Virus record (IMG/VR): IMGVR_UViG_3300032053_006543
Span: 1-37,240 of that record
DNA from: a virus
DNA length: 37,240 bases
Strand: one strand, 5' to 3'
In this document: in pieces, positions 12,901-37,124 of the stretch
Layout of the letters: the number at the start of each line of letters is the position of its first letter
How positions within the stretch are numbered: the first letter of the stretch is position 1
Notes under the pieces: model-generated
The model's input: only the letters and a program-made list of their open reading frames with translations
Databases searched by the model: none
What the model was told of the DNA's origin: nothing
Position numbers and translations under genes: made by a program

Positions 12901-12946
12901 CTTCCTTGTCATATTCAATAACCGATCTGAGTAAACGCTTTGGCAT
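9944..12946 (-). CDS. dnaB: DnaB-type replicative helicase with in-frame intein
   Basis: A 1000-residue precursor; without the 506-residue intein it is 494 residues, normal for DnaB. The N-terminal ~150 residues are a helical domain (FFSQFFEIPSAQTVLDYF). The RecA-like core starts at GSLCGINEVDDICRGAKKGE. Walker A is variant, AAYPGELKTSFA (Lys222), and Walker B is VGLVVLDHGQW (Asp343). After splicing the core continues with EKTADVI and a C-terminal arm. It unwinds DNA at the fork and recruits primase. ATG 12946 directly follows the stop of the loader-like gene (TAGATG), with no clear ribosome site, suggesting coupled translation. Its closeness to real DnaB versus other phage RecA-fold helicases cannot be settled by eye. 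Confidence 0.9.
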   Translation of the reverse strand: MPKRLLRSVIEYDKEVSQENLVRNFQLLRKAVEAGQLDWGRPEDERIYKYVLGFFSQFFEIPSAQTVLDYFESSKHLEEIERVKDIRVEKPYARTNFVHLLRTQQEEQGKIKAVALIKETHEILMRGIEDKDNKGEKIKGLEAAISHFNKKSQELRVTDTNVRVHGDIRTDAQEMIDEYNLAEMDRGKAIGSLCGINEVDDICRGAKKGELWIHAAYPGELKTSFACNWCYNAVTRYKTNVVYVSFEMKYEQIRRNIYTIHTTNTRFANRGFKPLDYRAIRDGTLTQEEKDFYQNVVIRDFDSNPTYTHFELVCPDRDWNMDDIRAQLELLHKEFEVGLVVLDHGQWIEPRKARKNKDYTIELNSVVNDSKRLALTFDHNAGVPVLMLFQINRNGKDDADKNDGIYKLKALTYANACCSAGTLIQTKGALLPIESVRPGTEVWSSTGWQKVLSNFDNGVRDVVVVSTDRGTKIVVTPDHRFRTITESGLEWVEARHLSKESYVLGASNSYTMSDKSEPKLPVLKFQKWERSIRVPKAVTPELAYLLGAYIGDGISQEEGVGYVGNLLETKVKAKISAYFFVAFGKRLLRYKRKASGVFILAKGSGALARWFRAIGSDRGTDGVPTCILQSSSQCQLSFLKGFWDTDGHVNTQGNISIGQEVAKRGTLEHVQLMLLGFGIDSAIHPKIAKLNGKEYPQEVLTIRSRRGRKLFASLIGFTEPHKQNRLKRFVKKYAGSDRRASLEEWPVADIYRRLLLRYGWFTRKGTEQIKAYNLFVGKKRPLQLRSIADQLYGNHDGNNTRRAYSLMQTMVRKGFLKHSSRGVYTGSIERERFYFPRKCNIALSKIERRGYPLVSRGAIEDALITLSQNGVLGDPDAELLNRLLATVIPQKVISVVPAGEAHVYDLEVTGDHEFAAGGLLVHNCEKTADVITSTYLNEEMRNAGLTKFCNLKNRDNPLFEPFQAHVNFVSRRILSPKRMEPQGFVVEEFDSYLQSMQVQL
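10178..11695 (-). mobile_element. Large intein with LAGLIDADG endonuclease and winged-helix-like insert in dnaB
   Basis: Residues 418-923 (506 aa). Block A is CSAGTLIQT; I chose the second Cys of a Cys-Cys pair because it gives the usual C-x2-G-T spacing. Block B is VTPDHRF. LAGLIDADG helices are LLGAYIGDG and LKGFWDTDG. The end is AGGLLVHN with Cys924 as +1 nucleophile. It is longer than most endonuclease inteins. The extra ~150 residues between the endonuclease and the splicing end contain a winged-helix-like stretch (SIADQLYG, SLMQTMVRKGFLK), roughly nt 10470-10610. All splicing residues are present. If the first Cys were residue 1, the borders would shift by one codon. Confidence 0.93.
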
Positions 12947-13831: not shown

Positions 13832-15601
13832 TTACGAAGAACGAAGGCTTCTGGCGAGTTCCTTGGTGAAACTTTCGCCCGACCCAAAATCCAACGCCCC
13901 TACAGCGGATTCCCCAAGAACCTTGTCAATCAGATCCTTTTTCTTTTGGAGAATTTCAAGCGTGTAACGATCGATCGATTTGCGTGCTTTGTCCGTAGTG
14001 CCCGGCCTTTCAGCCACCAAATGAACCGCCACCACATGCTGGTGGGGGGAACCTATGCGTATTGGCCGCCCCAAGAGCTGTAAATAGCTGCCCCATGACC
14101 ACGGAGCGTTGTAGAACACCATCGCGGAAGCAGCTTGGAGATTGATTGCTTCTGAACCGGCATCTGAAATGAAGATGACCCGCACGTCGGATTGAAGGTT
14201 TTGAAAGGCCTCTTGAGCCTTTTGACGAGCGGGGTTGGCTTTCGTATCCACTACGTCACCCGTGACCGCCACACTTTTTATCCCAAGCTGCATACAAAGC
14301 TCTTGGAGCCTGGGTACATGCGACGCAAAACGTGTGTAAACGATGACCTTTTCATCCTCGAATTCCTCGGATAGCAAATCGAGAAGTGCTCGTTCTTTTG
14401 AGCTTAGCTCCAAGGGTAAAGCAGGTACCAACACATCATCGAACATATCCAGAACCATGTCCCTCTCCCCGTATTCGTATTTAAGCAGTGCCATCGAGTC
14501 AACGGTTTTCTGGCAATACACAAGAGCAACAAGTTTCTTGTGCTCTTCGTAATCTTTGACCTCACCGTCCCCCAACTCCAGTATCCCGGTCAAAGCCTCA
14601 GAATATTTGGAATTCTCAACGGCCGATAGCTCAACCACCACTTCTTTCGTAATAAGCGTTGGAAGTTCATCTGAAATCAGGTGCTTCGGGCGGCCAAGGA
14701 AAAATGGGTCGATCCGATCACGGAAGGCTTGTAGATTTTTGTAGCCGACCACGATAGGGATTTTCCGACCACCACCAACGGACTGTAGTTTAGTGACGCA
14801 GTAGTCATTCATGAACTGCGACTTGTTCCGGAACACGTCAGGGTGAATCGCTTTGTAGATGGAGTACCCTTCGATCAAGTTGTTCTTCAGAAGGGTCGCG
14901 GTCATTCCATAACAACGGTTTGCCCGGAGGGCCAGCTGACTACAGACCTCCCACGTCTTTGTGTTGTTGTTTTTGAAGGCAGTGCATTCGTCATACGCTA
15001 CAACAAGCCCAGGGATGGCTTGTGTTATACCGTTCAGAAGCCCAGGAGTGGCCGGAGCTTTTGGATCAGGTTTACCATTAGCCAATCGAGGCACTGAAGC
15101 CCCGGCATTCCAGTCCCGAACTAGAAGGGCGTAGCCGATCATCAGGATCGCCTTATTCGGGCCCTGGTGCGCTGCAAACGCCTCGTAAATGCCCTTACGC
15201 TCTTGGGCCGAACCTTCCACAATGAAGGTCTGGATTCCAGTAGAGAATTTCCTGATCTCCGACCCCCACTGACGGATAGCACTTTTTGGTGCCACAATGA
15301 TGGCCTTGGTGTCGGGCTCCTTATCCCACACGTAACACAAGGAGCCGATAAGACAAATGCTCTTGCCAGTACCAGTGGCATCCCCAAGTACCATCCGCTT
15401 CATGGCCAGCAGGTGGTAGATAGCTTGGACCTGGTAGTACCGGAGCTTAAATGGCTGAACCGTTCCATCCAAGGCCAGGAACTCTGTCCTGAGCAGAGGC
15501 GTCGGCTTAAGCGTGACGGTCTTGGTGGCCCGAACTTGTTTGAGGATCTCGTATACCTTTGTATTGACTACGAGATTGTCCGGGTCTTTGGTCTTTGCCA
15601 C
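13832..15601 (-). CDS. SNF2-family superfamily 2 helicase/translocase
   Basis: A 589-residue protein, GTG start at 15601. Motif Q-like LRYYQVQAIYHLL precedes Walker A GDATGTGKSICL (Lys80), motif Ia AIIVAPKSAIRQW, the DEAH-position box AYDECTAF (Asp204, Glu205) and motif III GMTATLLKN. The second RecA lobe has VIVYTRFASHVPRL, SDAGSEAINLQAAS and motif VI LLGRPIRIGS. The compact size and the DECT box fit phage SNF2-type helicases, which may remodel replication or recombination intermediates. It is the promoter-proximal gene of the minus-strand operon, 21 nt ahead of the loader-like gene, and diverges from the gene at 15661. Confidence 0.9.
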   Translation of the reverse strand: MAKTKDPDNLVVNTKVYEILKQVRATKTVTLKPTPLLRTEFLALDGTVQPFKLRYYQVQAIYHLLAMKRMVLGDATGTGKSICLIGSLCYVWDKEPDTKAIIVAPKSAIRQWGSEIRKFSTGIQTFIVEGSAQERKGIYEAFAAHQGPNKAILMIGYALLVRDWNAGASVPRLANGKPDPKAPATPGLLNGITQAIPGLVVAYDECTAFKNNNTKTWEVCSQLALRANRCYGMTATLLKNNLIEGYSIYKAIHPDVFRNKSQFMNDYCVTKLQSVGGGRKIPIVVGYKNLQAFRDRIDPFFLGRPKHLISDELPTLITKEVVVELSAVENSKYSEALTGILELGDGEVKDYEEHKKLVALVYCQKTVDSMALLKYEYGERDMVLDMFDDVLVPALPLELSSKERALLDLLSEEFEDEKVIVYTRFASHVPRLQELCMQLGIKSVAVTGDVVDTKANPARQKAQEAFQNLQSDVRVIFISDAGSEAINLQAASAMVFYNAPWSWGSYLQLLGRPIRIGSPHQHVVAVHLVAERPGTTDKARKSIDRYTLEILQKKKDLIDKVLGESAVGALDFGSGESFTKELARSLRSS

Positions 15602-17920: not shown

Positions 17921-18760
17921 TCATCTACCGCCACCCCTACGAGATGAACGACCAGGTTTACCAGCCTTAGCGGTCCAGGTTTTACCGAGAAGTATGCTCC
18001 GAATAGACTCGTAATGAACACCGTACTTAGAAGCCAATGCCTTCATTGAAGTACCGGACAGGTGGGACTTTCTAATCTCGTTAGCTATACCCGCCGACAG
18101 CTTAGCTTTTGGGACTGGTGTACGATCACTAGGGAACTTAGCATAAGATCCTTTACCGTTAACGATGTTAGTTATGACAGAACCGGACACCCCAAATTCT
18201 TCCCCTATAGAAGCATGCGTCCTACGTTCTTTCACTAGTGCGCGGATCTTGTAGACAGTTTCTGCCGAGAACTTTAGCTTATTGGGGTTACCGTCGCCTA
18301 ACCACGCTCGTGATTTAGCTGTGCGGACTTCCGGTTTCTGTTGGCGGCCAAACATAGGGTTTCCTGCGCCCGTGCGCATAACGGACATGCGTTGTTTGAA
18401 CTCTGATGTTCTTTTTTTACCTCTATTGGCGGTAGCTATTTTAGCTTTTGTTTCGGCTGAAAAACTAGTTCTTCTACCCCCACCATTGAGGTTATACCCG
18501 AACTCCCTATTGTTGGTTCTCAACTCTAGAACCCATTTACGCTCACCCTCAAACGCTTCAGCATCGGAAGCGTACTCTTGAAGTATAGAAAACGAAAAAT
18601 TTACTAAGCCGTACTTAGCTATTGCAGCGTGAATCGGCATGTACCCGTTGTGGTCTGGGTGTCCAGAAGTCCAAATATGCTGCCCTAGTCTAGCCTCAGG
18701 ATCTTTTGACTTCCCCACGTACTTCTTGTTGTTGATCTTATTTGTGATGCAGTACACAGA
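17921..18760 (-). mobile_element. GIY-YIG homing endonuclease module fused to speD-like gene
   Basis: Roughly residues 160-438 of the fusion, covering the GIY-YIG catalytic domain plus a DNA-binding tail of NUMOD3-like and repeated HTH segments. Such modules normally travel as free-standing or intron-borne homing endonucleases. Here there is no room for a downstream exon (46 nt to the next gene), so it is not an intron-split gene. It looks like insertion at or near the 3' end of a host frame that produced a fusion protein. Confidence 0.75.
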
Positions 18761-19237
18761 GGGTGCTTGAGTAATTGGTTTCCTACGATTGATGATGTGA
18801 GTGCTTTCATTCTGGACCCCCATGTGGGTACGAATAATTTTCAAAGCAACTTCAGGGTCGTAGTCTCCACACGAAAAAACATCCATACTAAAAAATCGTT
18901 GAAGAGGCCAGCAATGGATTGCGATGTGACTTTTGCTGATCACACACATACCTGTAATTCCCCCCTCGTCGAGGAACTCTTTGGATTCTTGAGACTTGCG
19001 TAGAATCTCAGGATCGACTGGAACTTCAATGAACTCGGGTCCATGCAAAATCTTCATATCTAAAGCTGACACCAAACTTGTGAACAAGGTTTGCAGATGC
19101 GTTTCTTTAAACACCTTGTCAGGGTCAGACACAAAGGCATCAACAGTGACATGCACACCAGCACTTGGTAATAGCTTAGAGCGCGCGGATTCAGTGAAAG
19201 GCCTTTTAGTGGTAATATGGCGGATCGAGTTAGACAT
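17921..19237 (-). CDS. SpeD-like pyruvoyl decarboxylase fused to GIY-YIG homing endonuclease
   Basis: A 438-residue fusion. Residues 1-~152 are SpeD-like (S-adenosylmethionine decarboxylase family), with VHVTVDAF near the start and the active site GMCVISKSHIAIHCW (Ser103 precursor of pyruvoyl, His108) and DVFSCGDYDPE (Cys123). The residue before the cleavage Ser is Lys102 rather than the usual Glu. From ~160 a GIY-YIG nuclease begins (VYCITNKINNKKYVGKS), continues with GERKWVLELRTNN and FGYNLNGGG, then a NUMOD3-like GNPMFG and two helix-turn-helix repeats (HASIGEEFGVSGSVI; MKALASKYGVHYESIR). It ends in an Arg/Gly tail. The SpeD half may decarboxylate AdoMet, or arginine/ornithine as some divergent SpeD relatives do. 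The fusion is in frame with no stop. Confidence 0.85.
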   Translation of the reverse strand: MSNSIRHITTKRPFTESARSKLLPSAGVHVTVDAFVSDPDKVFKETHLQTLFTSLVSALDMKILHGPEFIEVPVDPEILRKSQESKEFLDEGGITGMCVISKSHIAIHCWPLQRFFSMDVFSCGDYDPEVALKIIRTHMGVQNESTHIINRRKPITQAPSVYCITNKINNKKYVGKSKDPEARLGQHIWTSGHPDHNGYMPIHAAIAKYGLVNFSFSILQEYASDAEAFEGERKWVLELRTNNREFGYNLNGGGRRTSFSAETKAKIATANRGKKRTSEFKQRMSVMRTGAGNPMFGRQQKPEVRTAKSRAWLGDGNPNKLKFSAETVYKIRALVKERRTHASIGEEFGVSGSVITNIVNGKGSYAKFPSDRTPVPKAKLSAGIANEIRKSHLSGTSMKALASKYGVHYESIRSILLGKTWTAKAGKPGRSSRRGGGR

Positions 19238-21202: not shown

Positions 21203-22528
21203 TTATACCTCATCCCAAATGCGACGACCTATGGTGCCACCAGCGTAGATATGCTCCGGCAATTCGTCCTTGTGCTCATCCAGCCACTCAGAAGCGTAAT
21301 CGTAGATATCGTCGGCATCCAACTCCAACGCTTCAGGTGGCATCTCGGTAAGAATGTCGGTCGGCTTGTCAGGCCCATTAAAACGGCCAAAGGAAAAACC
21401 TGCATCGCCCTTGTGTTTCTGTTGGAACTCGTGAAAGTTCTTAGCTCCTACAGCGTAAGAATCCGCAAATAACCTTGCATCTACCATCCGCCCAATGGAT
21501 TTTGCGCGTTCTACAACCCCTAGCCAAGCTTTCTTTGGGTCAGCAGCAACGAACACAAATGTTGGACGAATGCCCCTTTTTTTGCATTCCTCGATTAACC
21601 ATTCATTCTCAGTGGCGTTTTGCTCTCCAGCCGCATCCCAAGTCGCTGCCGCACCTGAAGATAGCTCCGGCTTAGCGGCTAACATGGATCCTTTCCCGGC
21701 CGCGACTCCGCCACTAGTAACTAGAATCTTTCGTTGCTCCGGTGGCAGTTTGGCAATCTCATCCATGCGCGAAAGAAACGCTTTTTTGACAATCGCGTTT
21801 GCTCCTTGATGCATCACGGCGTTGTACTTGGCTCTAGCTTTTGCTCTCTCCGGGTGTAAGGGCTCACCCTTCTTCTCTGGCGGAAGATCAGGACGTGACC
21901 ACTCTGGCATCAAAGTCTTGGCACCATCCGTTTCAAATACCCAGTTCTTGGTTTTAGCTATATCATAAAATGCCTGAGCCATCTTGTCTGGATGACTCTC
22001 AACCATAGCGTTCATCTTCTCCTCAATCGCAGCTTCATCCTTAGAGAGACCAGCTAGACGAGGTAACTTTGGTGGTGGGAGTATTGCCCCACCAGGGATC
22101 CCAACCCGCGATATGGTCTTGGGATTAGAAACGGGTTTCGATTTACGCTTAGTGGACTTAGCTTTTGATTTCTCAGCTTTCGGCTTGTCTTTCGGCTCGC
22201 TTTTCTTTGTTTCGGAGGCTGGTGCTTTGGGAGCTTGCTTAGAAGGAGCTTCTTGCTTAGGAGCTTCTTGCTTAGGAGCTTCTTGCTTAGGAGCTTGCTG
22301 CTTAGGCTTGGGAGCTTCTTGCTTAGGCTTGACCGAATGCAGAGTCTTATCAGCGTCTGGGTGATCCTTGAGATATTGCTGCAACTGTTTCGGGGAGTCA
22401 AACTCAGTGGCTTGCCGGTCTAGAAAAGCCAAGGCTACTCGCACGGCTCCATCGGAGGCCGAACCATTGGCCATCATAAGCTCAGCAACTCTCGTGAAAT
22501 AGTGCATCCTATTACCCGTATTTCTCAT
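21203..22528 (-). CDS. Zeta-toxin-like P-loop kinase with HP-x-AD N-terminal module
   Basis: A 441-residue protein, ATG 22528 in an ATGA overlap with the upstream gene. Residues ~11-38 are a helical module (FTRVAELMMANGSA, GAVRVALAFL) similar to the start of the next gene's product. Residues 42-66 carry EFDSPKQLQQYLKDHPDAD, almost matching the protein at 15661. A long low-complexity linker with KQEAP repeats and a Lys/Ser block follows. The C-terminal ~230 residues form a P-loop kinase with ILVTSGGVAAGKGSMLA (Lys279), WDAAGEQNATEN, TFVFVAADPKKAWLGVVERA and VDARLFADSYAVGAKNF. This fits zeta-toxin-like kinases, many of which phosphorylate UDP-GlcNAc. Here the N-terminal modules suggest a virion or injected protein. 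Function is inferred. Confidence 0.75.
   Translation of the reverse strand: MRNTGNRMHYFTRVAELMMANGSASDGAVRVALAFLDRQATEFDSPKQLQQYLKDHPDADKTLHSVKPKQEAPKPKQQAPKQEAPKQEAPKQEAPSKQAPKAPASETKKSEPKDKPKAEKSKAKSTKRKSKPVSNPKTISRVGIPGGAILPPPKLPRLAGLSKDEAAIEEKMNAMVESHPDKMAQAFYDIAKTKNWVFETDGAKTLMPEWSRPDLPPEKKGEPLHPERAKARAKYNAVMHQGANAIVKKAFLSRMDEIAKLPPEQRKILVTSGGVAAGKGSMLAAKPELSSGAAATWDAAGEQNATENEWLIEECKKRGIRPTFVFVAADPKKAWLGVVERAKSIGRMVDARLFADSYAVGAKNFHEFQQKHKGDAGFSFGRFNGPDKPTDILTEMPPEALELDADDIYDYASEWLDEHKDELPEHIYAGGTIGRRIWDEV
22229..22324. repeat. Low-complexity KQEAP repeat tract
   Basis: A run of 15-nt units (minus strand, encoding KQEAP, about five near-identical copies plus KPKQQAP and SKQAP variants) in the linker of the zeta-like protein. 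It is likely prone to slippage, giving linker-length variation. Confidence 0.8.
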
Positions 22529-24310: not shown

Positions 24311-25138
24311 ATGATCATTCGCATCCCAAACCTCAATCCATTCCGTAAAAAGGTCTACGGCTACAAGCGGGATCATCTGATCCTGATGGGGGCCGATGGG
24401 CAGGTCAGTGATTGGCATGAAAAGGACAAAGCAGTGTCGGAATTGTTCAAGGTAGCGGCCCCAAAGGCTACCGGGGACGTAGACCTTCGTGAATTTTGCA
24501 CCGATACGAACCAATACCAACTCTCAGCTTGCGCTGGGAACGCTACAGCCGATAGCTACGAAGTCCTCAACGCTATTGAGGGGCGTCCTCGTGTGGAGCT
24601 TAGTCGCCTCTTTGTCTACTCAATGGCTCGCATCCTCAATGGCGATCTAGACAAAGACGAGGGGACACATATCCGAAGTACCTTTGAAGCCGGTAGTAAG
24701 TTTGGAATTTGCGAGGAAACCTTTTGGCCCTACCAAACTTCCAAGGTGTTCACTAGCCCAAGCCTGATGGCACAACGACGAGCGCGTGGGCACAAACTAC
24801 ACAGCTACTACCGAATCAAATCCTCGGGCGCTGCTAGAGTAGAGGATGCCATCAAGGCACTTCGGGCTCACAAACCCATCGTGTTCGGAACACTGATTGA
24901 CGACTCATTTAGTAAAAGCAAAACCGACCCGGTATCGATCCCCAAAGGAAAGACTATTGGCGGTCATGCAATGATCGTGGTTGGCTATCAGGGCGGGAAC
25001 TTCATTGTGAAGAACTCTTGGGGCAAAAGATGGGGAGCTGACGGCTTCTGGTACATGACCCCCGAGTACTTCGCGTGGAAGAACACCTGGGATATCTGGG
25101 TGCCGACCCTTGGCAGTGAATTCAAGGTAGCAGCCTGA
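24311..25138 (+). CDS. Papain-like C1 family cysteine peptidase
   Basis: A 275-residue protease. Catalytic elements are in order: Gln68 and Cys74 in NQYQLSACAGNA, His219 in TIGGHAMIVVGYQ and Asn235 in FIVKNSWGKRWG, followed by DGFWYMTPEYF. The N-terminal ~50 residues replace a propeptide and there is no signal peptide, so it acts in the cytoplasm or inside the virion unless exported by a partner. C1-type peptidases of this shape occur in large phages. Possible jobs are protein processing in the capsid or attack on host proteins. It is divergent from the lipoprotein gene (56-bp gap) and convergent with the next gene. Confidence 0.9.
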   Translation: MIIRIPNLNPFRKKVYGYKRDHLILMGADGQVSDWHEKDKAVSELFKVAAPKATGDVDLREFCTDTNQYQLSACAGNATADSYEVLNAIEGRPRVELSRLFVYSMARILNGDLDKDEGTHIRSTFEAGSKFGICEETFWPYQTSKVFTSPSLMAQRRARGHKLHSYYRIKSSGAARVEDAIKALRAHKPIVFGTLIDDSFSKSKTDPVSIPKGKTIGGHAMIVVGYQGGNFIVKNSWGKRWGADGFWYMTPEYFAWKNTWDIWVPTLGSEFKVAA

Positions 25139-25705: not shown

Positions 25706-27436
25706 ATGGCAACAGCACGAGACGATAGCAGTGCAAACGATTTCCTCAAACAGAACGAACTACCGCATATTAAGTATGCCCGGGAGTCCAAGCTCTATTG
25801 CGATGGAAACCAAATTGAGTTAATGCGCCAACAAGCGGCCGACACTTTCGCCCTGTGTTTCATTAACAGTATTAAACACGAAGATATTCAAACATGGTGG
25901 ACCCCTGAGCAGCAGCGGCAAACACTTCGTGAAGTCACCATACAGATCCCAAAAATCGACCATGTTCTAGAGTTATACCCCGAAGATAAACGCGACTTGA
26001 TACTGTATGCAGCCATAGGACTAGAGGCCCAGAGGTGCCTTACCAACACTGGCTCATTGATCGTTCTTTGTCGATCGCAAAAGACAAAGAAAATCGCCAA
26101 TGTTTTGGATCTGATATTTGGAGACAAAAACCACCTACGGACAATCGCCTGGACCCATGGGTTCTCCTCGACCACCCAAATAAGCACGTCGTATCCAGAC
26201 GTGATTCAAAATTTTCTCTGGTATCAAAAAGATAAAGCAGCATTCTACCCGGACAAAATTCTAGTGCCTTGCAACAAGCAATATGTCCTGAAACAATTTA
26301 GGCACAAGGATCCACATGAGGACGACGGTAAAGAGGACGACGAGGATGATCTCTTCTTCAAGACAAAACCTGGTCGGAATTATCGTTTGAACTCGCTTAC
26401 GGGGTGGTCGAGGTCAAACGGAAATCTCCCGCCAAATGCCCTAGCACCCGTGCTCACATCGATCCCAGAAGAGCACCGTGGAACACCGGAAGACAACCTA
26501 CGTTATGCGGAAGAAAACAGCCTCCTGGAAAAGACCTCAACTGGTTCTTACGCGCAAAAGCAGTACCAGGATATGACCGTTGACAAAGGCAAACCAGTTT
26601 CGACGTTGTTCGCATACTTCCCAGGTACGGCAGGGACTCTTCACGGGAGTAAGGCTAACATCGGCGAGCCTTTCCGGACGTTGCAGAGCTGTCTGGAAGT
26701 ATTCTTGAAGGGCCACACCAAGGATGGCCAAAAAGTGTTGCTGCCTTTCTGCTCTTATGTGGAAACTGAAAAGCAGAAGAAGAAGCAGAAGCAGAAAAAG
26801 CGTCGGCCTACCGAGAAACCGTGTCTATTGAGAACGGTTATAGAGGGGAAACGTAGTTGGGTGGCGATGATTCCCAACTCAAGATGCATTCTCAATCCTG
26901 AGTCCGCTCATGCGATGATGGAGGATCTTAGGATCGAGAATGACCCTCTTGAATGGCAGCCAACATCATACGAAGAAGCGTTGGCGCTGAGTAAGTTTGA
27001 TAATGAGAGAGGCGAAAAGTTTGATAATGAGAGAGGCGGCAAAAAGGGAATGCTATGTCAAGCGTTCGCTACGAACCGAGTTAGCCTTGCACTTAAAACG
27101 AAGCCGGTTGGGCCGACAAAGAACGGAACGGACGAGGGAATGGACGCCGTGTTCATACTGTTGGATGACGATGGGAACCCCCACAAACTCATCTTGTCCG
27201 TGAAGTCGGGGTTGGTAAGCAAAGCCGACCGGAAAGCAGTAGAATCTTTAGGCAGCACGATGACCGCTGAGAAAGCCTCGTATGGTATCCTGTACTCCTG
27301 GGAACCTCCAACCCAGCCCGCGCGTGAGCACATGGAAAAACTCCGCAAGGAAGGGCAATATATCCGGATAGTCACGGTCCGAGAGGATCTCGAAGGATCC
27401 GATCCCATTCGGCGTCCAGTGTTCCCCGGCTCTTGA
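25706..27436 (+). CDS. Decayed type III-like methyltransferase fused to Mrr-like PD-(D/E)xK nuclease
   Basis: A 576-residue protein from ATG 25706; the frame stays open to a TTG at 25655. The first ~370 residues follow the layout of Mod-type methyltransferases: LYCDGNQIELMRQ, GLEAQRCLTNTGSLIVLC, LDLIFGDKNHLRTIAWTHGF and YVLKQFRHKDP ... YRLNSLTG. The catalytic DPPF/Y box is replaced by CFINSIKHE (residues 51-59), and the AdoMet box FxGxG by LLPFCSYVETE. A Lys-rich insert (KQKKKQKQKKRR) and a duplicated KFDNERG follow. The last ~110 residues match the nuclease-like domain fused to such enzymes: GTDEGMDAVFI (Asp480), then LILSVKSG (Lys500) and ASYGILYSWEPP. Prediction: no methylation, but DNA recognition plus cleavage. 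Homology is by pattern only. Confidence 0.65.
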   Translation: MATARDDSSANDFLKQNELPHIKYARESKLYCDGNQIELMRQQAADTFALCFINSIKHEDIQTWWTPEQQRQTLREVTIQIPKIDHVLELYPEDKRDLILYAAIGLEAQRCLTNTGSLIVLCRSQKTKKIANVLDLIFGDKNHLRTIAWTHGFSSTTQISTSYPDVIQNFLWYQKDKAAFYPDKILVPCNKQYVLKQFRHKDPHEDDGKEDDEDDLFFKTKPGRNYRLNSLTGWSRSNGNLPPNALAPVLTSIPEEHRGTPEDNLRYAEENSLLEKTSTGSYAQKQYQDMTVDKGKPVSTLFAYFPGTAGTLHGSKANIGEPFRTLQSCLEVFLKGHTKDGQKVLLPFCSYVETEKQKKKQKQKKRRPTEKPCLLRTVIEGKRSWVAMIPNSRCILNPESAHAMMEDLRIENDPLEWQPTSYEEALALSKFDNERGEKFDNERGGKKGMLCQAFATNRVSLALKTKPVGPTKNGTDEGMDAVFILLDDDGNPHKLILSVKSGLVSKADRKAVESLGSTMTAEKASYGILYSWEPPTQPAREHMEKLRKEGQYIRIVTVREDLEGSDPIRRPVFPGS

Positions 27437-27459: not shown

Positions 27460-27485
27460 TCAGAAAATCAGTGTCGAGGTACCGT

Positions 27486-27821
27486 ATGGATGAGAAGAAG
27501 AAAACGGAAAAAGTTGTGACAGCACGTAAGCCGAAAGCCCGGAAGACCAGGGTGCGTAGGAGGGTACCTAGGGTGACTATTGTATCCTATGCGGGAACCA
27601 CGTCGTCGGCTGCTAAGGCGTCGCGTGTGCCGGTCGATGTTGGGAAAGCCTTTGTGGCGCGTCGGAAGGCTGCCAAGCAGGCCACGGTTGTGGGAGCTAC
27701 GGTACTTCCACTGAACATTCAGTTCAAACGGCTAGTGATGGAGATCGGTATGTCTCAAGCCTACGTTTTCATGGCTGAGCTTCGAGCACTTGTTGAGAAC
27801 GTACCCAACCGTGATCGCTGA
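27486..27821 (+). CDS. Small very basic protein (nucleic-acid-binding-like)
   Basis: A 111-residue protein from ATG 27486, chosen because AGG lies 7 nt upstream (a GTG at 27471 would add five residues). Residues 1-30 are strongly basic (ARKPKARKTRVRRRVPR), like histone or nucleoid-protein tails, then a Thr/Ala-rich linker. The C-terminal ~40 residues are helical (NIQFKRLVMEIGMSQAYVF, AELRALVENV) and could form a small dimer domain. DNA or RNA binding is likely from charge alone. It follows the degenerate methyltransferase-nuclease by 49 bp on the same strand, so they may work together. Confidence 0.65.
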   Translation: MDEKKKTEKVVTARKPKARKTRVRRRVPRVTIVSYAGTTSSAAKASRVPVDVGKAFVARRKAAKQATVVGATVLPLNIQFKRLVMEIGMSQAYVFMAELRALVENVPNRDR

Positions 27822-27866: not shown

Positions 27867-28108
27867 CGCACCTCACGCTTAACAATATCAAGGTCGTTCA
27901 AGACGTTCTGAATGTCTTGGTCTTGCTCAAAAATCTTCATTGACTTCCGAAGAAAAAGAGCCTGCTGCTCAAAAAACTCAGCCGATTCGTAAGCGTAGAC
28001 CATAATCTTCTGGTCTTTCGAGGAAATCCAGGTTCGAGCATCAGGGCCCGAATCAATGGCGGCTTGACGACTAAGAGCCTTTTCTAAAACTTTCGCTGGA
28101 TCTGTCAT
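27854..28108 (-). CDS. Small hypothetical helical protein
   Basis: An 84-residue protein from ATG 28108 behind AGAGGAA; the start overlaps the previous stop (ATGA). It is largely helical (DPAKVLEKALSRQAAIDSG, SAEFFEQQALFLRKSMKIF, VLNDLDIVKREVRRRY) with a basic end. It is the last gene of the virion-protein operon. No family recognised; a minor structural or chaperone role is possible. Confidence 0.6.
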   Translation of the reverse strand: MTDPAKVLEKALSRQAAIDSGPDARTWISSKDQKIMVYAYESAEFFEQQALFLRKSMKIFEQDQDIQNVLNDLDIVKREVRRRY

Positions 28109-28314
28109 GATTCCTCTTTCGCTCCCGTATCGATCTGAAGTGTGCCCGCTTCCCATTGGGCAAGCTTGTGCATTTGCTCTTGAAGCTGAATTCTCTGATC
28201 CGTAGTCAAAAGAGGGTTGGCGAGAGCGCTCTTGAGTCGTGCTCTCGCAATCTTTGCCCCCTCTTTACGGTGTTTCGGGGATAGATCTAGATATGTCCTA
28301 CGGATGATTGTCAT
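28105..28314 (-). CDS. Small hypothetical helical protein
   Basis: A 69-residue protein. ATG 28314 overlaps the stop of the giant virion gene (ATGA), and its own stop overlaps the next start, so the three genes are translationally coupled. It is helical and basic at first (LSPKHRKEGAKIARARLKSA), then LLTTDQRIQLQEQMHKLAQW. No family recognised. Confidence 0.6.
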   Translation of the reverse strand: MTIIRRTYLDLSPKHRKEGAKIARARLKSALANPLLTTDQRIQLQEQMHKLAQWEAGTLQIDTGAKEES

Positions 28315-31300
28315 GGACTAGACCTCTTGGACAGGGCAATGGTCGCCGGGTCAATGTTCATGTGTACGTTGTTCCTGGTCAGGGGATGTCCATCAATACG
28401 GTATAGGTCTGCGGCGGCATAACCTTCACCAGATCCCTGAGTGCCAATAGTGAGGTCCCCCGGTACCGGAGCACCAGGAGTGGGTCGGACGACATTTGTG
28501 ATAACAAGCAGCATCAACTCGTCACCCGCCGAGACTTCGGTGGCCCCTACATTGGTAACAGCGTTTCGGACCAGCATTGCCCGTCCCACCAGCACGTTGG
28601 TATGGTTGCCGGTTACGAGAAGCGGTTGCCCTTGTAACGAAACCTCGCCGCCCGGATGAGCCCCATTGCCCGTAAACACGGAACCGCCACGCTGAACACG
28701 GAAGTTGGTCAAGAGCGAGTAGTTGCCAGGTTCGCCGTCCACATGGACCAGCACGTCCCCGGGGGAGCCTACACCTGATGAGGCCGTGTCTATCAATGCC
28801 TCGTACTGCTCGCCACCATTGACCGCCAGGCCCGTGCAATGACCGACCCCGACATCATTCGAGAACACAAGCGGGGAAGGGGTAGCTCCAAATACCTGAC
28901 CCCGAAAATCCTTGTCCCGGAACAGCGAACCGAGAGGAAGCCGCTCGGAACAACTCAAGTACTCCGACCCAATATTGGTCAGATCTGTGGATTGAAAATT
29001 GCCGGGTAACGAATTGGGTCTTGGATCGATGCCCGTGGTGGGTGGGAATGCCGTGGGATCTTCATACGCTACGTCCTTGAAGTCCAAAAGGTTCGTGGTC
29101 GCGTCAGCGGAGTACCGACCACTACCAAGAGTCGTGGAAAAACTTTTGGCAGCGAGCACTTCCAAGACCTTTTGATTCGGCCTCGTGAGAGCGCTTTGAT
29201 TCAAGCGTGTGGAAGCGAGTTGGAAGGCATCAGCGGTCGTTAACGGACCCGGATCGTATGGAAGATCGATATATGTGGACTGAGATCCCCATGGATCTCC
29301 GCCGTATGGGGTACGGGTGTAGTTGATGACCACTTGATCGGACGGCTCGGCGGGACCGGGTAAGCAAGCCGCAGGTCCTGCCACTTGCCTGTTGATGTTA
29401 AGAGGCCGAGTGCCCGGGTTAGGAGCTAGACCGGCTACTAACGACCAACTATTACCAGAAGGTCTAGTCAAAACCAGTCTGGCTTCCGAATTCAAATCGA
29501 AAGTTCCGCGATCGAAGCCGAAAATGGACGCTTCGATTACGTAGTCACCAGCCGCAAATGAAGCGAGTGGGTTTGGTGAACGTGTGATATCGATGGCGTT
29601 GGCGTTGAGAATGAAAGTAGAATCCCCATCATCGTCAATCTCAATCCACATGGTCGGACCATCGGCTTGAGTCATGTTCTGACGAAGCAGATTTGTGGCG
29701 GCCCCACCAACGAATGCCCTGGTTGTCGAGTTGAAAGGTGACCCACCGTTCACCTTATAATCATTCGCTTCGTACACCCCAAACAACCTGGCCACCCCAT
29801 AGAACGGAGGTAACTCCAACCCTTGACGCTCAAGACCTCTAGTGTCAGTGAACTTTCGCATTCCTGCAAATGTATTCGTGTACAGGAAGGTCCCATTATA
29901 GATTGAGGGCGTTGAAGTCTGGAGATCCAACGTGGAGAAAGCAGCGTAGGTGAATCCTGTGACGGGATTGTAGTTAACGTAATTCTTGTCCGCATCACTG
30001 AAGACGCTACCACTCTTGCTGACCGACCCAAAGTTGATGCCTTGAGAGAACGTCCCGGAGAGAGCATCAACGGGTAGAATTGGAAGACGTACTTCGCCCC
30101 AGCCCGGCACAAGATGGCGGGGTAAGCTGACGAAAATATTTTTCTGGGCCGCTTGCGGGAAAGTAGTGCCGCAAAACATTTCGAGTGGATCCGTTGTGGT
30201 CCACTTAGGAGCAAATGTCTTAGTAAGCAACGGCATTACACCTTGTGCCTGATGGACCGTGAATACGACTGGACCACCCGGAGATCGAATAGGCCGATCC
30301 ACTGTGATTGAGGTGTTCACAACAAGACTCAAAATTGTATAGCGACCAGCGCCTGGACCACTAGCTATAATCAAAGCATCGCCCACCGCTGTAGTTCCCG
30401 TAAAAGGAACTGCGGTCAATGTGGGTGAATTCAGACCTTTGGTGCCAGTTGTTGCAGACCCGAACCGAGGATCTGGGCCCGGATTTGCGGCATCCCCATC
30501 CACTGTGAGAACCACTGGGAAATCAATTTTGCGGAAGGGAGTAAGCAAAAGCGACTTGCTGCCAAGGTCCGCGTAAACCTCAGAAGTGACCGGCAGAAGA
30601 TTATTAAAAGGGGCGCTCCGGAACTTAGACCACAACGGGGTCCAAGCTATCCGTGATCCCTGATTATTTGACGGGACACCGGATTGCTGGACAAGCAAAT
30701 CCGCCGACGGGTTAATGTACGACACTGAATGCAGCATGTCGGGGCGACGTGACACACCACGGCCAGGACCGTAAACCGCATTAACTTTGATGTGGAGCAA
30801 CGCGGGGGTTGCTGCCGTGATAACGCCGGTTTGGGCTGGGAATGTGGGGCCAAACACGATGAACAGGTCATCACTAGGGCCAGGGATGGCCGGGAAAACC
30901 GAGTACATCGTAGAAGGGATGTCACCTGAATCGCCATCAAACCTGAGGCTTACAAAACCCGGAGCATCATTCACCCACCGAACCTGATCTGTGTCCCCAC
31001 CCGGTAAGCCATTCTTTAGCTGGTTCACTGGGATTTGCAGAATATCCCCGGGGGAAAACTGATTCGCGGTTGTATTGGAGGTCGGAGTTTCATCGTAACC
31101 AGTGCCGGACGAGTTACCGATGAGTTTGACTGTTAGTTGTAGATCCCACGTCACATTGACGAGCAGACCCGGCCCGGGGGGCACGGCTGAACCGATGGGT
31201 GCTACCATAAGCTCAATCGGCTGAACCGTGGCGGCATCCGAAAAGACCATGCGGATGTTGTCGGGGGCATCAAGCTTCGTCACACCCAACGAGACGCCAC

Positions 31301-32687
31301 CGGACTTGATCGCATCCTGATAGAACACCACGGGCCCTTGTGGGCCAGCACCGCTACGCTTCCAGTTGGATCGAAGCTGCCCACGAAGCAGTTTATCAAG
31401 GCTCCCATTAAGCAAAGAGTCATAGTCAAAGCCATTGGGATTCACACAGTGACGGAGATCCAAGATGTCCGTCAGGGCAATTTGATCCGAGAAAAGGCCA
31501 TCGGGACGACCCGACATGATCCTGACCACGGATCCGGCCTTGTGGAATTCACCCACCGTCCCATTCACACCACGGGCCAACGTGTTGATCGTGTTCGTTC
31601 CCGTGTTGATAGACGCATAGGTCATCAACTCATCACCAATCTGAATCAGAACCGGGGTCGCAGGATTGATTGGCAACGGAATATTGAGTGCCGAAACCAA
31701 GCTCGCCGACGTTGCCACCGCTGAAAGGTTAGCAGACAGCGTAGGAACCGTAGAGAACGTCTTGATTCCAGTGCGATCTACCGCCGTGGGATTACGCGAG
31801 AACCCACCATTGAGATTCTGCGAGGGCTCGCCCAGCCAAGAAACCGAGTTGCGGCGGAAGATAGCCGAGATCGGAATCGCGTAGGAATACCCGTCCACGG
31901 TTCCGAGCGCATTCTGGGTGCCGTCACCCGCTCTCCACAGCCCTGGGTCGCCCAAGGCTTGCCGCATATTCGTGAACGTGTAGGAGGTCGGGGTAGTGGC
32001 AGCGCCCTGAGCCTTGACAACAACTGGATCGAAACCATCGGGATTCGAGGTGAGGCCAACCAAACCCTTCACAACACGGATTCGGTATTGTATTTGCGTG
32101 CGTTGGGTAGTTTCAAAGCCCAGCGTCGGATCTACTAAATCATCGGCCAGAAAGCTGAAGCCGCCTTCCACATTGCCGTAGCGATAGATAGCACTGCTAG
32201 CTGGTTTGTTGGTAGCGGACGGGTTGGGTTGGATGCGAGCTTTCCAGACCTCAAGAAAAACGAAGTCGATTCTGAAATCGCCGCTGTTAGCCGGAGGTGG
32301 ATCCAACGCAATGATGTTGGTGCTGTCAACGTTATTGGGGCTCCCGGGCGGAGTTCCTGTACGAGTACCAGTTACTGGAATTAGCCAGCCATGCACATTA
32401 GCCCACTGAACAGATTGAAGTTCGCCAGTGCGTTGGGGACCAAACTTGAACCAGTTTGACCACAATGAATTTGTCAGATATGCCGATTGTGTATTTGTTT
32501 CATTACCCAAGAAACCGGATGGCACCCCTCGAAGCACATCCGAACGCACGGCAGTTGTAGCAATATCCCCTTGAAGGATAAATTCAGCGTCACATGGAGG
32601 CTTACCAGCTTGGAACACCACATCTTCAAAAGCTGTATCGGCAGCTTCCAAGACTCGTGACACTCCGGGACCCAAATTTTCAGCCAT
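28311..32687 (-). CDS. Very large virion structural protein (tail fibre/baseplate-like)
   Basis: A 1458-residue protein with ribosome site AGAGGG before ATG 32687. The start contains AFEDVVFQAGKPPCDAEF, similar to the KPP.D.E entry found in some phage baseplate or fibre proteins. Much of the chain is Gly/Pro/Thr/Asn-rich beta structure with repeated extended strands. A recognisable small domain is PVLIQIGDELMTYASI followed by LARGVNGTVGEFHKAGSVV, a pattern seen in phage surface proteins. There are no transmembrane segments and no enzyme motifs. It most likely forms part of the tail, baseplate or fibre. It heads a three-gene operon with two small helical proteins. Confidence 0.75.
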   Translation of the reverse strand: MAENLGPGVSRVLEAADTAFEDVVFQAGKPPCDAEFILQGDIATTAVRSDVLRGVPSGFLGNETNTQSAYLTNSLWSNWFKFGPQRTGELQSVQWANVHGWLIPVTGTRTGTPPGSPNNVDSTNIIALDPPPANSGDFRIDFVFLEVWKARIQPNPSATNKPASSAIYRYGNVEGGFSFLADDLVDPTLGFETTQRTQIQYRIRVVKGLVGLTSNPDGFDPVVVKAQGAATTPTSYTFTNMRQALGDPGLWRAGDGTQNALGTVDGYSYAIPISAIFRRNSVSWLGEPSQNLNGGFSRNPTAVDRTGIKTFSTVPTLSANLSAVATSASLVSALNIPLPINPATPVLIQIGDELMTYASINTGTNTINTLARGVNGTVGEFHKAGSVVRIMSGRPDGLFSDQIALTDILDLRHCVNPNGFDYDSLLNGSLDKLLRGQLRSNWKRSGAGPQGPVVFYQDAIKSGGVSLGVTKLDAPDNIRMVFSDAATVQPIELMVAPIGSAVPPGPGLLVNVTWDLQLTVKLIGNSSGTGYDETPTSNTTANQFSPGDILQIPVNQLKNGLPGGDTDQVRWVNDAPGFVSLRFDGDSGDIPSTMYSVFPAIPGPSDDLFIVFGPTFPAQTGVITAATPALLHIKVNAVYGPGRGVSRRPDMLHSVSYINPSADLLVQQSGVPSNNQGSRIAWTPLWSKFRSAPFNNLLPVTSEVYADLGSKSLLLTPFRKIDFPVVLTVDGDAANPGPDPRFGSATTGTKGLNSPTLTAVPFTGTTAVGDALIIASGPGAGRYTILSLVVNTSITVDRPIRSPGGPVVFTVHQAQGVMPLLTKTFAPKWTTTDPLEMFCGTTFPQAAQKNIFVSLPRHLVPGWGEVRLPILPVDALSGTFSQGINFGSVSKSGSVFSDADKNYVNYNPVTGFTYAAFSTLDLQTSTPSIYNGTFLYTNTFAGMRKFTDTRGLERQGLELPPFYGVARLFGVYEANDYKVNGGSPFNSTTRAFVGGAATNLLRQNMTQADGPTMWIEIDDDGDSTFILNANAIDITRSPNPLASFAAGDYVIEASIFGFDRGTFDLNSEARLVLTRPSGNSWSLVAGLAPNPGTRPLNINRQVAGPAACLPGPAEPSDQVVINYTRTPYGGDPWGSQSTYIDLPYDPGPLTTADAFQLASTRLNQSALTRPNQKVLEVLAAKSFSTTLGSGRYSADATTNLLDFKDVAYEDPTAFPPTTGIDPRPNSLPGNFQSTDLTNIGSEYLSCSERLPLGSLFRDKDFRGQVFGATPSPLVFSNDVGVGHCTGLAVNGGEQYEALIDTASSGVGSPGDVLVHVDGEPGNYSLLTNFRVQRGGSVFTGNGAHPGGEVSLQGQPLLVTGNHTNVLVGRAMLVRNAVTNVGATEVSAGDELMLLVITNVVRPTPGAPVPGDLTIGTQGSGEGYAAADLYRIDGHPLTRNNVHMNIDPATIALSKRSSP

Positions 32688-32912: not shown

Positions 32913-35381
32913 ATGAATAGGCTCATTTCACCCATTGTCGGCCTTCTGCTGATCGCTTGCGGAAGTTCACCAACCGCAGCACCTACACCAGAAACCAAGG
33001 ATCCTGAGCGAATTCAGGACGCTGGTTCATCGCTTGTAGACGGTGCTACCCAGAATACGCCGATGCCGATCCCGGATGCTGGTTCCCAACCACCGGCAAC
33101 CGACGCGGCACCCATGGATGCCGCATCTCCAAATTCTGGATCCCCGGACTCCGGATCCCCAGCCAATATTCCGGATTCTGGGTCCCCGGATTCCAATATC
33201 CCTAGTCCGGATTGCACCCCCTTGGATACAAAATGTGAAGGCTTGGTAGCATTTACTTGCGGTTCCGGATCGACTTGGAAAAGCACCCAATGCCCATTCC
33301 TCTGTTCAGACGGGGCCTGTGTGGGAGTTTGCAATCCGGGAGATTTGGATTGCCAAGGCCTTGTTCCCAGGGCCTGCAACTCCAACGGTCAATGGGTTCA
33401 AAAGCCCGCTTGTTCATTCGTATGCGAAGCGGGTAGCTGCACGGGCTCTTGTGTACCCGGTGACCGGGATTGTTCTGGCCAGAACCCACGAAGCTGTAAC
33501 CAGAGTGGTGCTTGGGTGAATGAGACACAATGCAGTTTCGTGTGCGGTGGTGAAGGCGTGTGTTCAGGATCGTGTAGCCCTACAGCCAAGGATTGCCAAG
33601 GCAACATCCCGCGTACCTGTGACCAAGCTGGCGCGTGGCAGTCAGGTTCCGCTTGTCCATACGTGTGCGGTGGGGCCGGGGTTTGCCAAGGGGTCTGCAC
33701 CCCATTGGCTACCCGTTGTAACGGCAATGGTTCAGAGACTTGTAATGCTTCGGGGCAATGGGTCTTGAACCAAACTTGCCCCTTCGTGTGCTCAGGTGCT
33801 GGGGTTTGCTCAGGAAGCTGTGCCCCAACCACTAAGCAATGCTCGGGTACAACCCCTCAGACCTGTGATGGTTCCGGTGCTTGGCAAAGTGGCTCGGCTT
33901 GTAGCTTCGTGTGCCAAGCGGGAACTTGTGGCGGTGTTTGCATCCCTGGGGATCGGGATTGCTCGGGACTGATTCCCCGGAGCTGTAGTGCTCAAGGGCA
34001 ATGGGTTGCTGAGACCGCTTGTCAATTCATTTGCGGTGGCGAAGGGGTGTGTTCAGGATCGTGTAGCCCTACAGCCAAACAATGTTCGGGAACCACGCCA
34101 CAAACTTGCAATGCCAGTGGTCAATGGGTTTCGGGTTCAGTTTGTCCATACGTGTGTGGTTCGGGAACCTGTGGCGGTGTTTGCGTGCCAGGTACCAAGC
34201 AATGCTCAGGCGCTTTGATCCAGACCTGTAATGGTTCGGGTCAATGGGACACGGCGATTGCCTGTGGTGCCGTCCAGGGTGCCACCGTGGCGTGTGATTC
34301 GGGTACCAAAGCTTGCATCGCTACCTGCACGGGTACCAACTTCGACTGCGACCTAAACATGGCCAACGGCTGTGAAGCCGATGCTTCTTCGGACGCAAAC
34401 AACTGCGGTGTGTGTGGCCACAGTTGTTGCGGGGGTGCTTGCGGGTCGGGGACTTGCGGGGTCTACACTTTCATGCCTGCTGCCCCACCCTACCGTTATG
34501 ACGTGGATGCCAACAATATTTATTGGTCCTGGGGCACCGAAATCAACAGCATGCCCCGCACGGGAGGAGCTACTACGGTCGTTGCTTCCAACCTCCCGGG
34601 AGGACTAAGAACCTTTAGCGTGTTCGGAACCAACGTGTTTTGGAGCGTAAATGGCACGGTTGCAAACAATTATCAGGACGTTGGGATTTACTCGCAACCC
34701 ATTAGTGGTGGCACACCTACCCATTACATGCCGCTCATGGATTCCGATTCTTTGCTAATCACCGCCACGGACATTTTCACAAAGCGGGTAGACAGTGCGG
34801 GTATCTATTACATCCCACGCAGCAACGATGGCTCCTATAACCTGCTGTTCGGCGCTACACTTCCGGACGGATCGGTCAACGTAAACGCAACTTACGCTGC
34901 ACCTTTTGTCACGGACGGCACGTATCTCTACGCGACTTACTCGAACTATGCGACAAACCTGTTCCCAGTCGTCAGGACACCAATCCACGGTGGTGCAGTC
35001 ACTACGTTCGCGTCTTGGACCCCCGTCTCAGGGTCGGTCAGACACCTGGCTCTCTCCACGGACGGAATCAACCTCTACTATATCCGAGCCATCGGTGCCG
35101 ACGCTGCAAATACTGGTATCTGGAAGCAGCCATTTGCCGGTGGCGCTGCAACGCTGTTGGTGGGTAATGGGTTTGGATTCAACCAATCCACGGCTACCGA
35201 TGGCACCAACGTCTATTATGAGGTGAATAATCAAATCCGTAAAATCCCAATCAATGGTGGGTCTAGCTCGTTAGTTGCGCCATCCTCTACTGGTGGAACG
35301 GTCAATTACAACATCAAAGTTATCAACCAATGTGTTTACTGGAAGTCGGACACTCTCCACGCTAGTGCGGTGAGTCCTTGA
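32913..35381 (+). CDS. Large lipoprotein with tandem Cys repeats and beta-propeller-like end
   Basis: An 822-residue protein. It has a lipoprotein signal with box LIAC (ISPIVGLLLIACGSS), then a Pro/Ser/Asp linker (DSGSPDSGSP). Residues ~100-470 hold nine Cys-rich units of ~40 residues (pattern C.PGD.DC.G..PR.C...G.W....C.FVC...G.C.G). They are followed by NGCEADASSDANNCGVCGHS, a motif I know from myxobacterial surface proteins. The C-terminal ~290 residues form repeated blades (NNIYWSWGTEINSMPRTGGA, TDGTYLYATYSN, TDGTNVYYEVNN), a beta-propeller. It is expected on the host outer membrane. The gene looks host-derived; receptor masking or superinfection exclusion are possible roles. Confidence 0.8.
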   Translation: MNRLISPIVGLLLIACGSSPTAAPTPETKDPERIQDAGSSLVDGATQNTPMPIPDAGSQPPATDAAPMDAASPNSGSPDSGSPANIPDSGSPDSNIPSPDCTPLDTKCEGLVAFTCGSGSTWKSTQCPFLCSDGACVGVCNPGDLDCQGLVPRACNSNGQWVQKPACSFVCEAGSCTGSCVPGDRDCSGQNPRSCNQSGAWVNETQCSFVCGGEGVCSGSCSPTAKDCQGNIPRTCDQAGAWQSGSACPYVCGGAGVCQGVCTPLATRCNGNGSETCNASGQWVLNQTCPFVCSGAGVCSGSCAPTTKQCSGTTPQTCDGSGAWQSGSACSFVCQAGTCGGVCIPGDRDCSGLIPRSCSAQGQWVAETACQFICGGEGVCSGSCSPTAKQCSGTTPQTCNASGQWVSGSVCPYVCGSGTCGGVCVPGTKQCSGALIQTCNGSGQWDTAIACGAVQGATVACDSGTKACIATCTGTNFDCDLNMANGCEADASSDANNCGVCGHSCCGGACGSGTCGVYTFMPAAPPYRYDVDANNIYWSWGTEINSMPRTGGATTVVASNLPGGLRTFSVFGTNVFWSVNGTVANNYQDVGIYSQPISGGTPTHYMPLMDSDSLLITATDIFTKRVDSAGIYYIPRSNDGSYNLLFGATLPDGSVNVNATYAAPFVTDGTYLYATYSNYATNLFPVVRTPIHGGAVTTFASWTPVSGSVRHLALSTDGINLYYIRAIGADAANTGIWKQPFAGGAATLLVGNGFGFNQSTATDGTNVYYEVNNQIRKIPINGGSSSLVAPSSTGGTVNYNIKVINQCVYWKSDTLHASAVSP
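33213..34320. repeat. Tandem ~120-bp repeats encoding Cys-rich units
   Basis: About nine imperfect repeats of ~115-125 bp. Some stretches are identical between distant copies, e.g. a 32-nt exact match at 33558-33589 and 34047-34078. This suggests repeated duplication or gene-conversion-like exchange among units, so the copy number may vary between relatives. Confidence 0.85.
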
Positions 35382-36231: not shown

Positions 36232-36663
36232 TCAATATCCAAATCGAGGTGCGCGGGGATGCTGAAGCAACCATTCCTCGGCTTCTTGCTTGCTGTGGAA
36301 CGGCTTACCGCCGGTACCCACCGTGCCGTCGTACCAGCCAATCGTCCAACCCACCGTGTCCAGCCTCCAGTTCTCTTTGCGGTCACCGGGGGCCCCAGAC
36401 CAAGGTACGGCACCATAAAGGCTGGCCGTCGCCCCCGTGTCCTTGTGGGTCCAGTGCTTGGACTCGATCACTTCGCCTTCGCCACGACTACCAATTTGAG
36501 CACCCGAAGCTGTAGTTTCGACCCTTTGGGCCAGTTGACTCAGATCATGAGCAAGTTTCTCACGACTTGGGTTCTTGGTTTTAGAGTACGCAAGCAAACT
36601 CCGTAACTCCTGCGTCAGCTCATTCGGTGAAGCAATCTTTTTCATGTCTCTGCTCTCTGCCAT
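36232..36663 (-). CDS. Hypothetical protein with HP-x-A C-terminal element
   Basis: A 143-residue protein from ATG 36663 (MAESRDMKKI), which overlaps the speD stop (TAATG); a longer frame to 36765 would overlap speD by 100 nt and is rejected. An N-terminal helical part (LTQELRSLLAYSKT, LAHDLSQLAQRVE) is followed by a beta-rich domain (VIESKHWTHKDTGATASLY, WRLDTVGWTIGWYDG). The end, KPFHSKQEAEEWLLQHPRAP, follows the same F-x-[ST]...[YW]L-x2-HP-x-A pattern as the N-terminal elements of the proteins at 15661 and 21203. Function unknown. Confidence 0.65.
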   Translation of the reverse strand: MAESRDMKKIASPNELTQELRSLLAYSKTKNPSREKLAHDLSQLAQRVETTASGAQIGSRGEGEVIESKHWTHKDTGATASLYGAVPWSGAPGDRKENWRLDTVGWTIGWYDGTVGTGGKPFHSKQEAEEWLLQHPRAPRFGY

Positions 36664-37124
36664 TAGGCGTTGATTCTTGTATCCGGAGGCCATTCGGAGT
36701 CCTGATCGATACACACGGTAGGCGGCGGCAACGTGTTCCGGGTGTGGCTCTGAAGGGTCATGCATGGGCCGTGACCCTCGATACCCCGACCACGCTCAAC
36801 GTAGAGCATCTCGAAGCTCGCGGCTCCCAGGCCTTCCCGAAGCACCTCGTGGGCCTCGTTCGGATCCCCGTCACCGCACGTGTAGAAGTCCACAGCGGCG
36901 TAGCCGTACTCGGGCCAGGTGTGGATAGAGAGGTGCGATTCCTCGACCACCACAACTCCCGAGACGCCTTGCGGTACGAAAGGTTTGAACTTTGAGAATA
37001 CGACTTTCGTACGTGCAGCGATTGCAGCCTCAAGCATCAAGGCTTCAATCTTGTTGACATCATTAAGTACATCAGCATTGCAGTTCATGTACTCGACTAA
37101 AAGGTGGCGTCCGTGGGTATCCAA
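36663..37124 (-). CDS. speD: S-adenosylmethionine decarboxylase (SpeD), canonical
   Basis: A 153-residue protein from TTG 37124, supported by a strong ribosome site (GGAGG, 8 nt) and by the canonical start MDTHGRHLLVEYMNC. SpeD self-cleaves to make a pyruvoyl enzyme that decarboxylates AdoMet, supplying aminopropyl groups for spermidine. The active site is VVVVEESHLSIHTWPE with Glu62-Ser63 (cleavage point) and His68, then YAAVDFYTCGDGDP with Cys83, the same numbering as bacterial SpeD of this class. The C-terminal ~35 residues (after VERGRGIEGHG) are an extra Pro-rich tail. No SpeE is in the window, so host spermidine synthase may be used. Confidence 0.92.
   Translation of the reverse strand: MDTHGRHLLVEYMNCNADVLNDVNKIEALMLEAAIAARTKVVFSKFKPFVPQGVSGVVVVEESHLSIHTWPEYGYAAVDFYTCGDGDPNEAHEVLREGLGAASFEMLYVERGRGIEGHGPCMTLQSHTRNTLPPPTVCIDQDSEWPPDTRINA

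Follow-up and report, generated by a model that had tools for sequence, protein, structure and literature searches.

The gene at 25706–27436 (+) of the window, by which we mean the entire 37,240-base stretch of a virus record that was analysed, encodes a 576-aa protein in which a methyltransferase-like half is followed by a nuclease-like half, and the question it raises is what such a protein could still do if the methyltransferase can no longer methylate. A preliminary description had reported a dead methyltransferase together with retained nuclease core residues, and this observation was confirmed by the open reading frame, by Pfam matches and by alignments. The features of the gene are as follows:

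25706..27436, + strand: coding sequence of the predicted methyltransferase-dead Mod-Mrr fusion protein (576 aa, open frame)
25787..26890, + strand: Mod-like methyltransferase domain, residues 28–395, predicted fold kept, catalytic and AdoMet motifs lost (Pfam N6_N4_Mtase, AlphaFold2, Foldseek)
25844..25882, + strand: position of motif IV, where TFALCFINSIKHE replaces SVDLVYLDPPFNS, plus a deletion (alignments; no compensating frame)
26672..26689, + strand: position of motif X, where FRTLQS replaces YPTQKP (alignments)
26741..26764, + strand: position of motif I, the AdoMet loop, where LPFCSYVE replaces DPFCGCGT (alignments; pLDDT below 50 after the motif)
26771..26818, + strand: lysine-rich insertion KQKKKQKQKKRRPTEK, absent from the relatives compared (alignment)
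26993..27040, + strand: linker in which an 8-residue unit is duplicated, KFDNERGE KFDNERGG (sequence)
27041..27391, + strand: Mrr-like PD-(D/E)XK nuclease domain, residues 446–562 (Pfam Mrr_cat, alignment, AlphaFold2 secondary structure)
27143..27145, + strand: Asp480, the predicted catalytic Asp (Asp in 109 of 112 relatives)
27197..27205, + strand: Ser498-Val499-Lys500, the predicted active-site half-motif (Ser in 68 and Gln in 42 of 112 relatives at the first position, Lys in 110 of 112 at the third)

Relatives were recognized by tblastn in Streptomyces Likavirus phages and on one Rhizobium plasmid, and profile searches yielded 80 loci in IMG/VR and a further 63 in genomes of bacteria and archaea; 112 members, thinned to less than 70% identity, were aligned together with the 576-aa protein. 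They represent a family from phages and bacteria in which a beta-class Mod-type DNA methyltransferase is fused to an Mrr-like nuclease, with the hallmarks GDNL, DPPFNS (motif IV), HCDPTASHYLK, YPTQKP (motif X) and DPFCGCGT (motif I) in the methyltransferase and ADxGIDG...[S/Q]VKxG in the nuclease. The same arrangement, an N-terminal beta-class methyltransferase fold and a C-terminal Mrr-like nuclease in one chain, was found here: N6_N4_Mtase matched residues 106–345 (26.9 bits, E 5.7e-6, barely over the cut-off) and Mrr_cat matched residues 471–547 (26.1 bits against a cut-off of 21, E 9.7e-6), both weak matches, yet above the curated cut-offs. The family profile, which includes the 576-aa protein itself, matched the window at E 2.5e-85. 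Intact fusions (PF01555 with PF04471/PF22722), such as gp48 of Streptomyces phage Snorlax (UKH48550.1) and WP_008534093.1 of the Rhizobium plasmid, share with the protein its domain order, a similar length, an end-to-end alignment at ~19–27% identity and the D...[S/Q]xK core, but they keep DPPF, YPTQKP and DPFCGCGT, all three of which have been lost here. Judged by its sequence, the 576-aa protein is a divergent member of this widespread family. Literature searches turned up no account of Mod-Mrr fusions as a family, nor of a form that is dead for methylation.

The losses in the methyltransferase half are extensive. At motif IV, where the family has DPPF/Y, the SVDLVYLDPPFNS of relatives is represented by TFALCFIN/S with a deletion of ~20 residues, so that only CFIN and a gap stand in its place; YPTQKP of motif X has become FRTLQS; and VLDPFCGCGTT of motif I has become VLLPFCSYVET, in which LPFCSYVE occupies the place of the AdoMet motif D[PA]FxGxG. 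In addition, LHCDPTASHYLK of relatives is replaced by VLCRSQKTKKIA, and HCDPTASHY of the family corresponds to LCRSQKTKK. The N6_N4_Mtase score is ~27 bits, compared with 142–163 bits in sampled family members. A frameshift hiding the lost motifs was considered and rejected, there being no DPPF or FxGxG in the other frames. With motifs IV, X and I absent and the AdoMet loop gone, the claim that methylation has been lost was borne out, and by motif the protein is predicted to be dead for methylation.

To avoid a bias towards intact methyltransferases, IMG/VR was scanned a second time with a smaller alignment that covered the nuclease domain only. Among 187 distinct nuclease-bearing ORFs, both motifs were recognized by pattern in 163 and a DAFCGCG variant of motif I in a further 4. 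The remaining 20 were mostly cut by contig ends or split by frameshifts, several having the DPPF half in a neighbouring ORF; one (L241) turned out to be intact when the upstream sequence was read, and two others (L085 and L254) lacked the N-terminus of the methyltransferase, through truncation or recombination, and kept motif I. Broken copies among relatives are thus frameshift-split or truncated rather than eroded in frame, and no second case of both motifs lost in a continuous gene was seen among the 187. A family-wide loss of motif IV, raised in the preliminary description, was rejected on these counts; DPPF is kept in relatives and the loss is specific to the 576-aa protein. Two unusual loci were also noted. 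On one viral contig (L085:2174–4921) a terminase-like N-terminus lies in frame with the C-terminal half of a Mod-Mrr fusion, an arrangement that possibly arose by recombination or assembly. In a Methanophagales genome a free-standing 151-aa copy of this nuclease domain (L147:5991–6443) lies downstream of a family methyltransferase gene (L147:3716–5248), so that fused and separate nuclease genes both occur.

AlphaFold2, run with 113 aligned sequences, gave a model with a mean pLDDT of 78 and a pTM of 0.71 (a single-sequence model, with a pLDDT of 33, was discarded). Most of the nuclease core exceeded a pLDDT of 90, whereas the loop after motif I fell below 50. The best PDB match found by Foldseek was the Mod subunit of EcoP15I (4zcf, E 5e-13), in agreement with the Mod-like N-terminal part proposed earlier, and the next were 6k0w (a Mod methyltransferase), M.BceJIV and M.RsrI; among viral models it matched DNA methylases, and over shorter stretches also restriction endonucleases, one of them an Mrr-domain protein. 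Residues 449–557 were modelled in the order helix, strand, strand, helix, strand, helix, strand, and both D480 and K500 fall at the end of a strand. In PD-(D/E)XK cores the active-site residues usually lie at strand ends. Both expected folds, a Mod-like one and a C-terminal PD-(D/E)XK core, were therefore predicted. Because the model was built on the family alignment, it indicates that the fold can accommodate the sequence, and the case for an empty pocket rests on the missing motifs.

How well the nuclease has fared is a more delicate matter. Asp480 and Lys500 lie exactly where they had been placed in the preliminary description, and both columns are conserved in homologues at the counts given above. 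Ser498 was considered as a mark of a dead nuclease and rejected, Ser being the commonest residue at this position, and the Mrr_cat score lies within the 17–40 bits of family members. However, the description of the nuclease as apparently intact stood only in part: D480, S498 and K500 are kept, but the near-invariant family residues at W457, G481, R513-[D/E]514, M539 and Q554 are changed. The R-[D/E] pair at 513–514 is E-S here, and an otherwise intact relative (L137) has E-T. In view of these losses and of the fast evolution of this half, "intact nuclease" is too strong a label, and nuclease competence after losing W457, G481, M539 and Q554 is uncertain. It should be kept in mind that in the PD-(D/E)XK superfamily acidic residues are known to shift in sequence while keeping their spatial place (PMC1189080). 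The recognition region varies too much for comparison, and the kept recognition claimed in the preliminary description, like the sparing of modified phage DNA, is conjectural.

The two halves have not diverged to the same extent. Columns at least 90% conserved in the family were kept at 34 of 103 positions in the methyltransferase versus 12 of 18 in the nuclease (Fisher p = 0.009). The ratio of nuclease to methyltransferase identity was 1.30, above all 110 relatives tested (median 0.88, maximum 1.05), among which the nuclease half is overall no better conserved than the methyltransferase half. In separate trees the end branch of the protein was 7.3 changes per column for the methyltransferase versus 2.1 for the nuclease, the family medians being 0.47 and 0.30. 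The decay is thus uneven on this comparison, the nuclease half being relatively better preserved, as had been claimed, though also fast-evolving: its median identity to the family (0.298) was below that of any member tested. No close homologue of the 576-aa protein was found in the searches, and the conservation of D480 and K500 was compared across the wider family only. No stop codon interrupts the frame, as against 22.5 expected from its own composition and 12–34 in the other frames, which argues for translation having been maintained. A recent foreign origin was not indicated by base composition, as the GC of the gene is the same as that of neighbouring genes; codon use was uninformative. 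Promoter and terminator scans gave results no better than shuffles.

Homologues of the big tail-like protein (28311–32687) and of the replication genes are found in unchanged order on contigs as long as 416 kb, and the record is therefore a fragment of a jumbo-phage lineage. The stretch at ~24–28 kb is variable cargo in sister jumbo phages, and most of them are without the 25706–27436 gene. One sister of 411 kb, G006, has an intact fusion (L197:7402–9111, -) in the same variable region, beside homologues of 28105–28314 and 32913–35381. It resembles our protein in lineage and in its two domains, but its motifs are intact (DPPF, DPFLGSGTT), its nuclease motif is QVK, identity is ~22%, and its exact slot and orientation differ; it apparently comes from another branch of the family, although its placement is unsure given the long branches. 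Downstream of the 576-aa protein lies one further feature, which had been proposed as a possible partner:

27471..27821, + strand: small basic protein with a GTG start (an ATG start at 27486 is equally likely)

No convincing homologue of this small protein was found in profile libraries or in the fetched loci. The separate phage methyltransferase invoked in the preliminary description is real (7763–9352, -), but nothing ties its target site to the 576-aa protein. It belongs to a subfamily with DPPA at motif IV (DPPAGISFMGKxW in most IMG/VR relatives; mycobacteriophage relatives have DPPY); decay of this enzyme was considered and rejected, as DPPAGISFM is conserved in IMG/VR relatives. Judged by gene order, sister phages lack it in the equivalent slot.

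Several other genes of the window deserve mention. A family-A DNA polymerase (3349–7347, -) and a DnaB-like helicase (9944–12946, -) each carry an intein with LAGLIDADG domains, and in sister phages the polymerases and most helicases are shorter, as if intein-free. S-adenosylmethionine decarboxylase-like genes lie at 17921–19237 (-) and 36663–37124 (-), the reading frame of the former extending into a GIY-YIG homing endonuclease that has NUMOD3. A low-complexity protein with a C-terminal zeta-toxin-like kinase domain is encoded at 21203–22528 (-). In the same variable region as the fusion gene lies the gene of a papain-like C1 cysteine peptidase (24311–25138, +), to which G006 has a weak relative close to its own intact fusion. 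The gene at 32913–35381 (+) encodes a large, cysteine-rich, repeat-bearing lipoprotein-like protein with 27–48% identity to proteins of sister jumbo phages.

The protein was also compared with other known systems. Type III Mod of EcoP15I is, among solved structures, the closest in fold to the methyltransferase half, but Mod keeps its motifs and works with a Res helicase-nuclease, whereas here the nuclease is fused and neither an active Mod nor an adjacent Res was found; the sole ResIII-like match in the window is an SNF2 helicase (13832–15601) that is common to sister phages without the 576-aa protein. Single-chain type II restriction–modification enzymes (IIC/IIG) have modification- and cleavage-type domains in one polypeptide (PMC12707154) and combine both activities; in the 576-aa protein the methyltransferase motifs are absent and methylation is predicted to be dead. 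With type IV Mrr it shares the Mrr_cat domain, but no Pfam match to the Mrr N-terminal winged helix was found and its N-terminus has a methyltransferase fold. In jumbo phages, Mom domains occur fused to REase domains; the Mom part is predicted to shield the phage's own DNA, leaving the nuclease to attack DNA from elsewhere (PMC7824862). These, too, are phage-borne combinations of a DNA-modifying domain with an REase-fold nuclease proposed to act on non-self DNA, but their modifying enzyme is different and is predicted to be active.

Taken as a whole, the protein is probably best read as a methylation-dead but still DNA-directed nuclease, that is, a former modification–cleavage enzyme in which the dead methyltransferase would serve as a scaffold and the nuclease would cut DNA, a reading to which we give a probability of about 0.5. 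In its favour are motifs IV and I, which are found family-wide yet lost here, the uneven decay, the open frame and the retention of D480, S498 and K500, to which the precedent of the Mom-REase fusions (PMC7824862) and the intact fusion in the same region of a sister jumbo phage may be added. Against it stand the long nuclease branch (2.1 versus 0.3), the near-invariant residues that were lost, an NA-iREase1 score that has fallen to 13 bits, the failure of the searches to find a close orthologue and the rarity of the gene in sister phages. A serious, if rather doubtful, rival is one in which a phage-acquired restriction–modification gene is decaying in both halves, the methyltransferase first, and retains little or no function: the gene was found in one phage only, its branch is extreme in both domains, it carries lysine-rich and duplicated insertions, and the nuclease half has lost residues too. 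Against this rival, the frame is free of stops despite heavy substitution, the active-site trio is kept, fewer changes have accumulated in the nuclease half than elsewhere in the protein, and the broken relatives did not erode in frame.

Also a serious rival, although we regard it as unlikely, is that both activities are gone and that the protein works through binding to DNA or to proteins; it might then be a repressor, for example, or might inhibit host restriction enzymes or serve as a decoy for them. The nuclease half of relatives matches NA-iREase1, a family named inactive, several near-invariant nuclease residues are lost in the 576-aa protein, and the methyltransferase fold is retained with good model confidence; but D480 and K500, the expected first losses of an inactive nuclease, are exactly those kept, and relatives keep Gln/Ser-x-Lys, PD-QxK being the site that is recorded for Mrr and MspJI (PMC12707154). 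The placement of the nuclease in the Mrr clade suggests yet another course, since Mrr and MspJI cut modified DNA (PMC12707154): a type IV-like nuclease whose dead pocket holds or tolerates methylated sites, such that modified host or phage DNA is cut. Loss of methylation is compatible with such a switch of preference, but Pfam detected neither a known reader domain for modified bases nor an Mrr winged helix, and we consider this quite improbable.

Under the preferred reading of a methylation-dead nuclease, the ancestor would have been a single-chain enzyme that joined a beta-class Mod methyltransferase to an Mrr-like nuclease and whose methyltransferase half may now act only as a DNA-binding scaffold guiding the nuclease half, which would cut DNA in infected cells. 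Because the protein could not mark its own targets, phage DNA would need another escape, be it missing sites, other modification (for instance by the separate methyltransferase), timing or compartment. Likely targets would be the DNA of the host or that of rival phages and plasmids; the use as a weapon suggested in the preliminary description is unproven. We speculate, tentatively, that a jumbo phage has turned a self-protecting restriction–modification enzyme into an unpaired nuclease, its dead methyltransferase targeting host or rival DNA and protection being provided separately. Phages and bacteria commonly carry intact Mod-Mrr fusions, which offer ready controls for experiments. If the protein cuts, it would show that a modification enzyme can be stripped down to the scaffold that targets a nuclease, and how the phage that carries it keeps its own DNA safe would become a testable question.
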